A stretch of 64,000 nt of DNA from an uncultured Gemmiger sp. (GTDB lineage Bacteria; Bacillota; Clostridia; Oscillospirales; Ruminococcaceae). This document shows positions 21,790-40,599 of this stretch, one piece after another. The stretch spans positions 1 through 64,000 of the forward strand of contig CANRLV010000005.1 in the NCBI GenBank assembly GCA_947631565.1. Direction: 5' to 3'. The notes below the pieces were generated by a model that saw nothing but the letters and a program-made list of their open reading frames with translations, was not told the origin of the DNA and searched no databases. The position numbers were made by a program, and so were the translations under genes. How positions within the stretch are numbered: the first letter of the stretch is position 1; each line of letters opens with the position of its first letter.

Positions 21790-21838
21790 ACAGCGGCCCG
21801 ACCGGGGAATGACTTCCGGCGCCGGCCGCTGTATTTTA
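21790..21838. terminator. Terminator between the convergent dehydrogenase and DUF421 genes
   Basis: ACAGCGGCC / GGCCGCTGT pair around a 25-base GC-rich loop, with ATTTT on the + side and TTT on the - side. Confidence 0.65.
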
Positions 21839-22522
21839 CTGCACCCGGCAGGCGAAAAAGTCACCGTTTTGGCTGCAGGCGGCGTAAAACACCTCGCTGG
21901 TCTGGCCGATGCCCTGGCGCTCCAGCATCTGGGCGAGCCATTTCTCGTCCTTGCCGGCGGAGCGCAGATTTTGGTGCTGCAAAACGCCGTCCAAAATCAG
22001 ATCGGTCCAGGCAGCGGCCGGTGCGGGGTGCAGCTGCAGGTCCTGCGGGGTGGCGGGGCGGTTCAGGCTTTTGGGCAGAAAGCTGATCTGGCCACTCGTC
22101 TCCATCACGGCGCTCTGCAGCTCGTTGAGGTCAAAATACCCGGCGATGCGGGCCTGGCCCAGGAACTCATTGAGGTCGATGCCGGCTTTGGCCAGCGCCT
22201 GCTTGTAGATGGTGCCGTTCTCCATCAGCGTGCTGGCGCGGCCACTCAGGAACGTGCGGGCAGCCAGGCTTTTGCAGGCGGCGGTGTGCACCAGCCAGGT
22301 GGCCAGACCGTACAGCACCAGCGCCGTCATCGGGCGGTACCACTGCTCGAGGTTGGTGGCCAGCTCGGCGGCGATGGAGCCGATGGTGATGCTGTTCACA
22401 TAATCGAACGTGCTCATCTGGGCGATCTGCCGCTTGCCGGACAGGCGCGTCAGGAAAAACAGCACGACGATGGACAAAACGCCGCAGCCCAACACCTGCC
22501 CTATCTCGGTCAAAACATCCAT
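21836..22522 (-). CDS. DUF421 (YetF/YrbG-type) membrane protein
   Basis: A 228-residue DUF421 protein: three N-terminal membrane segments with RLSGKRQIAQMSTFDYVNSITIGSIAA, the signature of the family, then a small cytosolic domain (LMENGTIYKQALAKAGIDLNEFLGQARIAGYFDLNEL). The biochemical role is not established; members are often induced by stress or sporulation. The ATG at 22522 lies eight bases after AAAGGAGG. A MITE sits 12 bases upstream of that ribosome site, so the native promoter may have been displaced. Confidence 0.85.
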   Translation of the reverse strand: MDVLTEIGQVLGCGVLSIVVLFFLTRLSGKRQIAQMSTFDYVNSITIGSIAAELATNLEQWYRPMTALVLYGLATWLVHTAACKSLAARTFLSGRASTLMENGTIYKQALAKAGIDLNEFLGQARIAGYFDLNELQSAVMETSGQISFLPKSLNRPATPQDLQLHPAPAAAWTDLILDGVLQHQNLRSAGKDEKWLAQMLERQGIGQTSEVFYAACSQNGDFFACRVQ

Positions 22523-22541
22523 TTCTGTATCCTCCTTTTGC

Positions 22542-22679
22542 CAACACACCTAGGGATGTGCAAAACGCGAGTTTTGCAAAAGCGGCATACAATATATAGT
22601 ATTCCACGTCAAGAATAGGCGCTATATACTGTATAAACTTGTGAGCAAATTGGAGTTTTGCACATCCCTACAACACACC
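22542..22679. mobile_element. 120-bp foldback MITE with 9-bp target duplication
   Basis: The element spans 22551-22670. Its ends are perfect 16-bp inverted repeats (TAGGGATGTGCAAAAC / GTTTTGCACATCCCTA), and the inner arms also pair imperfectly (ATACAATATATAG against ATACAGTATATAG at the same distance from each end). CAACACACC lies directly on both sides (22542-22550 and 22671-22679), a clean 9-bp target site duplication. There is no coding capacity, so it is a non-autonomous transposon moved by a transposase from elsewhere. It is AT-rich compared with its surroundings. Confidence 0.9.
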
Positions 22680-22719
22680 CTCTATTTTGGACCGTTTGGT
22701 AACAGTTTATCCCAGCCCC

Positions 22720-22777: not shown

Positions 22778-23806
22778 GTGGAGTATGTATTCATCCTCAA
22801 CCCGACGGCGGGCAGGACCGATGCCGGCGCACAGCTCGTGCCGCGCATCGGGGCTGCCGCGGCAGCGCTGGGCCTGACCGGGCAGGTGCGCATCCTGCGC
22901 ACCGAATACGCCGGCCATGCCCGGGAGCTGGCCCGGCAGTACGCGGCCGCCGGAACGCCTGTGCGCCTGTACGCCTGCGGCGGCGACGGCACTTTCAATG
23001 AGGTACTGCAGGCGGCCGTCGGGCAAAGCCATGTGGCGCTGGGCTGTGTGCCCTGCGGCAGCGGCAATGACTATGTGCGCAACTTCGGCACGGCGGATTT
23101 TCTCGATATCGCCGCCCAACTCGAAGCTGTGCCGGTGCCGCTCGACATCATGGACACCGGCTACGGCGCCAGTGCCGATATCTGCGCCGCCGGGCTGGAC
23201 GCCCAGGTCGCCTGGGCCATCCCGCGCTACCGCCGCATCGCCGGCGGGTCCCTGAGCTACACCTGCGCCATCGTCGAGACGCTGTTCCGCCGCATCGGCC
23301 ACCGGCTGCGCATCACGCTGGACGGGCCCGGCGGCACGGTGCTGGAAAACAGCTACACCATCCTGACCGTCTGCAACGGTCAGTATTACGGCGGCGGTTA
23401 CCGCGCGGCGCCGCACGCCCGCATGGACGACGGTATGCTCGAGGTGCTGCTGGTGCGCAAGCTCACCCGGCCGCAGCTCGTGCGCATTCTGGGCGACTAC
23501 AAAAGGGGGCTGCACATCACGCCGGCGGGCGGCGTCGCCCCCAAATTCAAGCCGTATCTGGAGATCTACCGCGCCAAAAGCGTGGACATCGAGGTGCTGG
23601 ACGGCCGCCCACTCATCGTCACGCTGGACGGCGAGTGCACGCCCTGCACCGACCGGCTGCACATCGAGCTGCGGCCAAGGGCACTGAACGCGCTTTTGCC
23701 GCGCACGGTGCTGGCGGGCGGCACGCCCGCCGTTTTATCACAAAGCATTGCGGCAAATCATACTGCGGCCGTTTCGGCCGCCGGGGCCGCCGGGGAAGGG
23801 AACTGA
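22778..23806 (+). CDS. Diacylglycerol/lipid kinase (YegS/DagK family)
   Basis: A 342-residue lipid kinase with NPTAGR at residues 8-13, the GGDGTFNEVL catalytic motif at about 68-77, and CGSGNDYVRNF at about 90-100. Such enzymes phosphorylate diacylglycerol or related lipids at the inner membrane face, returning them to phospholipid or teichoic-acid metabolism. It starts with GTG after AAGGGGGGAG. The last 30 residues are low-complexity Ala-rich. One base separates its stop from the lon ATG. Confidence 0.88.
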   Translation: MEYVFILNPTAGRTDAGAQLVPRIGAAAAALGLTGQVRILRTEYAGHARELARQYAAAGTPVRLYACGGDGTFNEVLQAAVGQSHVALGCVPCGSGNDYVRNFGTADFLDIAAQLEAVPVPLDIMDTGYGASADICAAGLDAQVAWAIPRYRRIAGGSLSYTCAIVETLFRRIGHRLRITLDGPGGTVLENSYTILTVCNGQYYGGGYRAAPHARMDDGMLEVLLVRKLTRPQLVRILGDYKRGLHITPAGGVAPKFKPYLEIYRAKSVDIEVLDGRPLIVTLDGECTPCTDRLHIELRPRALNALLPRTVLAGGTPAVLSQSIAANHTAAVSAAGAAGEGN

Positions 23807-28682: not shown

Positions 28683-28758
28683 GCGGCCATAGCTCATCTG
28701 GTAGAGCGCCACCTTGCCAAGGTGGAGGTAGCGAGTTCGAGCCTCGTTGGCCGCTCCA
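28683..28758 (+). tRNA. tRNA-Gly(GCC), copy 1
   Basis: A 76-nt cloverleaf with acceptor GCGGCCA/TGGCCGC, anticodon loop TTGCCAA (GCC, codon GGC) and encoded CCA. It is identical to the copy at 29052. Confidence 0.97.
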
Positions 28759-28777
28759 TTTCCCCCAAAAGGGATAC

Positions 28778-28850
28778 GGGAGTTTAGCTCAGCTGGGAGA
28801 GCATCTGCCTTACAAGCAGAGGGTCAGCGGTTCGAGCCCGTTAACTCCCA
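28778..28850 (+). tRNA. tRNA-Val(UAC)
   Basis: A 73-nt cloverleaf with acceptor GGGAGTT/AACTCCC, anticodon loop CTTACAA (TAC, codon GTA). All stems pair. Unlike its neighbours, CCA is not encoded (CTT follows the discriminator A), so the tRNA nucleotidyltransferase must add it. Confidence 0.96.
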
Positions 28851-28857
28851 CTTTCGT

Positions 28858-28934
28858 GGCCCGGTAGTTCAGTTGGTTAGAACGCTAGCCTGTCACGCTA
28901 GAGGTCGTCGGTTCGAGCCCGATCCGGGTCGCCA
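28858..28934 (+). tRNA. tRNA-Asp(GUC)
   Basis: A 77-nt cloverleaf with acceptor GGCCCGG/CCGGGTC (one G-U), anticodon loop CTGTCAC (GTC) and encoded CCA. Confidence 0.97.
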
Positions 28935-28939
28935 AATAT

Positions 28940-29015
28940 GCCTCTGTAGCTCAGTCGGTAGAGCAGGGGACTGAAAATCCCCGTGTCATTGGTTCGATTC
29001 CGATCGGAGGCACCA
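28940..29015 (+). tRNA. tRNA-Phe(GAA)
   Basis: A 76-nt cloverleaf with acceptor GCCTCTG/CGGAGGC, anticodon loop CTGAAAA (GAA) and encoded CCA. Confidence 0.97.
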
Positions 29016-29051
29016 AATTTCTCCCGTGTTCTTTGCAAAAGAGCACGGCAT

Positions 29052-29127
29052 GCGGCCATAGCTCATCTGGTAGAGCGCCACCTTGCCAAGGTGGAGGTAG
29101 CGAGTTCGAGCCTCGTTGGCCGCTCCA
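29052..29127 (+). tRNA. tRNA-Gly(GCC), copy 2
   Basis: An exact duplicate of the tRNA-Gly at 28683, including CCA. The preceding TG dinucleotide (ATGCGGCC... at copy 1, ATGCGGCC... here) is also shared, suggesting a local duplication. Confidence 0.97.
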
Positions 29128-29134
29128 CAAAACG

Positions 29135-29161
29135 CCAAAACCGGCCCCGCGCCGGTTTTGG
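29135..29161 (+). repeat. Hairpin between tRNA-Gly copy 2 and tRNA-Cys
   Basis: CCAAAACCGGC / GCCGGTTTTGG is an 11-bp stem with a 5-base loop. It has only an internal T4, so it is either a weak terminator or a processing structure. Confidence 0.55.
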
Positions 29162-29168
29162 TATATAT

Positions 29169-29243
29169 GGTGACGTGGCCAAGTGGTAAGGCAAGGGTCT
29201 GCAAAACCCTCATTCGGCGGTTCAAATCCGCCCGTCACCTCCA
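29169..29243 (+). tRNA. tRNA-Cys(GCA)
   Basis: A 75-nt cloverleaf with acceptor GGTGACG/CGTCACC, anticodon loop CTGCAAA (GCA) and encoded CCA, immediately before the operon terminator. Confidence 0.96.
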
Positions 29244-39553: not shown

Positions 39554-39566
39554 AGAGGGCAGAAAG

Positions 39567-39700
39567 TCTGTTTCAGGGCGGGGTGAAAGTCCCCACCGGC
39601 GGTACAGCCCGCGAACGGTCCTTTGCCTTTTTTGGGCAGCGGGGCCGCTGACCCGGTGAGACTCCGGGGCCGACGGTATAGTCCGGATGGAAGAAACGGA
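39567..39700 (+). ncRNA. FMN riboswitch (RFN element)
   Basis: All hallmark blocks are present: TTCAGGGCGGGGTGAAAGTCCCCACCGGCGGTA, AGCCCGCGA, GACCCGGTGAGACTCCGGGGCCGACGGTATAGTCCGGATGGAAGAA (shortened here to its key motifs). The closing helix P1 pairs TCTGTTTC (39567) with GAAACGGA (39693). It senses FMN and controls ribU. Confidence 0.97.
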
Positions 39701-39729
39701 AGCAAACCCCCATGGCACTGCTTTTGTTG

Positions 39730-40476: not shown

Positions 40477-40499
40477 ATCTTTCGACAACAGAATAGCAA

Positions 40500-40592
40500 C
40501 TTATCAAGAGTGGCTGAGGGAACAGGCCCTGTGAAGCCCGGCAACCTGCTGAACAGCAAGGTGCCAAATCCTGCGGGAAACCGAAAGATAAG
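40500..40592 (+). ncRNA. SAM-I riboswitch (S-box)
   Basis: CTTATCAAGAG...GGCTGAGGGA, CCCGGCAACC, AAGGTGCCAAATCC and CCGAAAGATAAG are the standard S-box blocks. P1 is closed by CTTATC (40500) and GATAAG (40587). It senses S-adenosylmethionine, the product of the metK gene downstream. Confidence 0.97.
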
Positions 40593-40599
40593 CGGGCCA

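Follow-up and report, generated by a model that had tools for sequence, protein, structure and literature searches.

A 120-bp foldback sequence lies immediately upstream of the ribosome-binding site of a DUF421 gene in an uncultured Gemmiger species, and its position raises two questions: whether it is a native part of the regulatory region of that gene or an insertion and, if it was inserted, what it may have done to the expression of the gene. The original prediction, made from the letters of the sequence, described a recently inserted MITE that may have replaced the DUF421 promoter. Here we examine the anatomy of this element, the corresponding loci in related genomes and the candidate sources of transposition activity, and we consider the consequences of the insertion for the DUF421 transcript.

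Data and methods

The analysed window is a stretch of 64,000 nucleotides (positions 1 to 64,000, forward strand, of contig CANRLV010000005.1 in assembly GCA_947631565.1). The host genome (G000) is a draft assembly in 140 contigs, 89% complete, which is placed in Gemmiger by its DUF421 orthologues, the closest of them from uncultured Gemmiger MAGs. It also carries a second, distant DUF421 paralogue (G000:C2:7031-7573, 29% identity), as do many Gemmiger genomes. Elsewhere in the window, six tRNA genes are clustered at 28683-29240 (plus strand), and an FMN riboswitch (39565-39702, plus strand, 116 bits) and a SAM riboswitch (40498-40594, plus strand, 81 bits) lie less than 1 kb apart.

For the detection of insertion-like structures, the whole window was scanned for perfect inverted ends, 10 bp or longer, directly bordered on both sides by an exact repeat of 4-12 bp. 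The comparison set for the locus comprised 27 DUF421 loci (L208-L234) from other Gemmiger genomes with a comparable upstream region, excluding the locus of the window itself.

Results

The element occupies the intergenic region between two divergent genes, DUF421 on the minus strand and a YegS-type gene on the plus strand, with the following arrangement:

21836..22522, minus strand: DUF421/YetF membrane protein gene, 228 aa, intact (PF04239, E=1.5e-30; full-length orthologues)
22531..22537, minus strand: Shine-Dalgarno AAGGAGG of DUF421
22542..22550, no strand: target-site duplication CAACACACC, left copy, 9 bp (sequence and window scan)
22551..22670, no strand: 120-bp foldback (MITE-like) insertion, identified by its ends, fold, window scan and absence from Gemmiger DUF421 loci
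22551..22566, plus strand: left terminal inverted repeat, 16 bp (sequence)
22655..22670, minus strand: right terminal inverted repeat, 16 bp (sequence)
22671..22679, no strand: target-site duplication CAACACACC, right copy, 9 bp (sequence and window scan)
22778..23806, plus strand: YegS/diacylglycerol-kinase-type gene, divergent from DUF421 (PF00781 and PF19279)

The 16 outermost bases of the element form a perfect inverted repeat, TAGGGATGTGCAAAAC, and its 60-base halves are identical at 36 of 60 positions when aligned without gaps as reverse complements. The target duplication is exact at both flanks and exactly 9 bp long, and the GC content of the element (39%) departs from that of the window (64%). 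Single-stranded DNA of the element is predicted to fold end to end at -25.0 kcal/mol (z = -6.3), a value equalled by none of 200 shuffles. The scan returned the element as the sole match in the window with a flanking repeat longer than 5 bp, and a 9-bp repeat coupled to a 10-bp inverted end did not arise in any of 60 first-order Markov resamples of the window. The element lacks coding capacity, given that its 120 bp cannot hold, and are not listed as holding, an open reading frame of at least 80 aa. The predicted foldback, with 16-bp perfect ends and a 9-bp duplication, is thus borne out by sequence, scan and resamples; its reported distance of 12 bases from the DUF421 ribosome site requires correction, the base of the hairpin lying 13 nt before the Shine-Dalgarno sequence and the duplication 4 nt from it.

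Comparison with related genomes provides direct evidence on the state of the locus before insertion. The element is absent at all 27 DUF421 loci of the comparison set, and the flanks of the window, joined with a single copy of the duplication, can be aligned to the intergenic region of these relatives. The distance from a conserved block, TGGGATAAACTGTTA, to the DUF421 start codon is 192 bp in the window and 63 bp after subtraction of the 129 bp attributable to element and duplication (120 + 9), to be compared with 62 and 63 bp in L208 and L209, the relatives closest to it. The nearest relatives belong to different species, their DUF421 proteins being 76-78% identical, and the empty sites are hence seen between species. 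The original prediction had proposed to examine the empty site in a sister strain; the comparison, run here in Gemmiger relatives rather than in a strain of the same species, favours insertion. Because the empty site is real, the 138 bases spanning element and duplications are not the conserved, unique intergenic sequence in relatives that would have spoken against a mobile origin. The claim that the insertion is recent holds to the extent that it followed the split from relatives with 76-78% identical DUF421 proteins, which is the tightest bound these data provide. Anatomy and empty site together make it nearly certain that the sequence is a transposed, non-autonomous foldback insertion.

These observations bear on two alternative readings. 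A regulatory palindrome native to the DUF421 leader (a riboswitch, attenuator or operator) would explain a strong hairpin directly upstream of the Shine-Dalgarno sequence, but it is contradicted by the empty sites at 27 of 27 loci and by the exact flanking duplication; moreover, the element has no Rfam match even at an E of 1, and no terminator-like U-tract was found after the hairpin. We regard this reading as highly improbable. An artefact of assembly, suggested by the fragmentation of the draft into 140 contigs, is scarcely credible, since a typical sequencing read is longer than the 120 bp of the element, no other copy was found that could confuse the assembly, and the flanks rejoin into a conserved empty site.

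The position of the insertion relative to signals for DUF421 transcription was analyzed next to the following features:

22700..22714, minus strand: promoter-like block TGGGATAAACTGTTA of DUF421, undisturbed, upstream of the insertion
22706-22714, minus strand: putative extended -10, TGGGATAAA, inside the promoter-like block (resemblance and conservation)
22573..22600, plus strand: weak sigma-70-like match TTTGCA-16-TATAGT within the element, directed away from DUF421

The block is conserved, in the form TGG[GCT]ATAA..TGT[TAC]A and close variants, in 23 of the 27 Gemmiger relatives; in the other four (L211, L212, L217 and L229) it is missing and the upstream region is different. In some Gemmiger species the block reads TGGTATAATATGTTA, which can be interpreted as a textbook extended -10 accompanied by a weak -35. 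We call the block promoter-like on the grounds of its conservation and its resemblance to an extended -10; the -35 is weak. Since the block survives undamaged on the upstream side of the insertion, the element probably lies between the DUF421 promoter and the Shine-Dalgarno sequence, in the 5′ untranslated leader. The suggestion that the element replaced the DUF421 promoter therefore finds no support, the conserved block being intact and the lone promoter-like match facing away from the gene. A takeover of promoter function could be argued from the placement of the element, which is AT-rich and immediately upstream of the gene, and from the promoters carried by other prokaryotic MITEs (review PMC10969869). 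Against it stand the undisturbed ancestral block and the absence of any sigma-70-like match on the DUF421 strand between 22450 and 22800; the single match in the region, in the opposite orientation, is within chance expectation (1 versus 0.4 in shuffles, sd 0.8). Such a takeover is accordingly judged unlikely.

With the element placed in the leader, a predicted transcription start approximately 7 nt past the -10 (near 22699) would locate it some 29 nt into the transcript. For the leader RNA, a fold of -56.7 kcal/mol (z = -4.1) is predicted in which the element makes up one long hairpin. A stable leader hairpin of this kind could protect the mRNA, be cleaved by RNase III or have no effect.

The search for further copies and for a parent element covered several taxonomic levels. 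In the host draft genome (89% complete), the terminal 16-mer occurs only as the two ends of the element, the nearest other site having 2 mismatches, and searches with the whole element in this genome and 150 relatives yielded only short, low-scoring matches. A search of 398 family genomes turned up only scattered lone 16-mer sites with one mismatch, none of them found with a partner end, and the exact 16-mer had no match in samples of 394 genomes from the order and 391 from the class, two sets that partly overlap. In 15 genome stretches the surroundings of the best single-end matches were scanned for paired ends, and no partner end was seen. The plasmid collection returned two weak matches of 27 bases, the phage collection returned none, and 94 viral stretches containing the 14-base core produced only chance pairings. 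The original prediction had advised a search for additional TAGGGATGTGCAAAAC-type ends and for a full-length IS sharing them; no paired ends or such IS came to light in the host genome or in the samples from the family (398 genomes, one mismatch allowed), the order (394 genomes) and the class (391 genomes). Among the papers listed by a literature search, none described a MITE in Gemmiger.

The designation MITE consequently holds by anatomy only, given that no second copy or end-sharing IS was found: the element has the expected shape (short, with inverted ends, a 9-bp duplication and an empty site), but in copy number it departs from the definition, which calls for multiple related copies, as a single copy is seen in the 89% complete draft. 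A parent copy may have been lost, or may lie in sequence missing from this genome of 140 contigs. From its anatomy and the empty site, and with neither an autonomous partner nor a second copy found, we infer that the element was mobile.

Several transposase families were considered as the source of mobility. No IS256 transposase (PF00872) and no IS6 transposase (PF13610) was detected in the 89% complete host genome, and an 8-bp duplication is expected of IS6. The ISAs1 transposase (NF033564) was found in none of 35 Gemmiger genomes, the host's own included, with positive controls, and ISLre2 (PF06782) gave no match in 61 genomes, but control genomes were equally silent. As a refinement of the transposition model, an IS256/mutator-type transposase may have made the insertion, a reading that we consider possible though rather doubtful. 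Mutator-superfamily (p-MULT) elements produce 8- or 9-bp duplications (PMC3942029), which the 9-bp duplication at this locus fits, and IS256-type transposases are present in 11 of the 35 Gemmiger genomes. Two related copies (L185/L186) carry an inverted motif, [AT]AGGG[TC]TCCTGTAAAAT, that resembles TAGGGATGTGCAAAAC with one gap. However, no such transposase was detected in the host's own genome, the resemblance is short and needs that gap, and a strict search detected no 8-9-bp duplication around Gemmiger IS256 copies. L185 and L186 have the sequence beyond the motif in common, and the motif may therefore not mark their true end. Common outer flanks, TGTTCGCAAA to one side and GACAAGCCAT to the other, are observed beside the inverted motif in the Gemmiger IS256-type copies L185, L186, L187, L192, L199, L202, L205 and L206; being shared, they suggest either that the real ends lie further out or that there is one preferred insertion sequence. 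The link to IS256 is thus a lead, not an assignment.

Discussion

The evidence gathered here makes it very probable that the sequence is a MITE-like, non-autonomous foldback element inserted in trans into the DUF421 leader by a DDE-type transposase. In the mechanism we propose, such a transposase would have introduced the element through a 9-bp staggered cut, its target being the short stretch of leader that separates the Shine-Dalgarno sequence from the DUF421 promoter, and would now be absent or encoded in unsequenced DNA. DUF421 is presumably still transcribed from its ancestral promoter, which would include the element in the 5′ untranslated RNA; the stable hairpin formed there would at most tune mRNA stability or translation. 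The element itself is most likely a passenger without function of its own. A bolder combination strikes us as very unlikely: the element would be all that remains of an uncharacterised IS family with TAGGGATGTGCAAAAC ends, and DUF421 would have retained the leader hairpin as a new means of control.

The locus shows cleanly, on a small scale, how a foldback element can come to lie between promoter and ribosome site, and the relatives still display the ancestral leader. The insertion adds a hairpin to the 5′ leader and leaves gene and promoter untouched. It is otherwise ordinary genome clutter, which would carry greater weight only with a demonstrated parent transposon or a demonstrated influence on the expression of DUF421.

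In relation to known systems, the element is a singleton of an ordinary, already known type. It resembles prokaryotic MITEs such as Correia and MITEAba12 (PMC10969869) in being short, intergenic, noncoding and foldback, with inverted ends and a target duplication; it differs from them in being single copy, with no repeat family or parent IS found. With IS256/mutator-superfamily (p-MULT) insertion sequences (PMC3942029) it shares a duplication in the 8-9-bp range and, loosely, the end motif of the Gemmiger IS256-type copies, whereas no transposase in its own genome and no element with the same ends was found. A positional parallel is the Correia element that immediately follows the gonococcal mtrCDE promoter (PMC10969869). 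The two sequences are unrelated, and the IHF site and regulation belong to the gonococcal system; what the two cases have in common is a MITE inserted right behind a promoter, within the leader of a gene.
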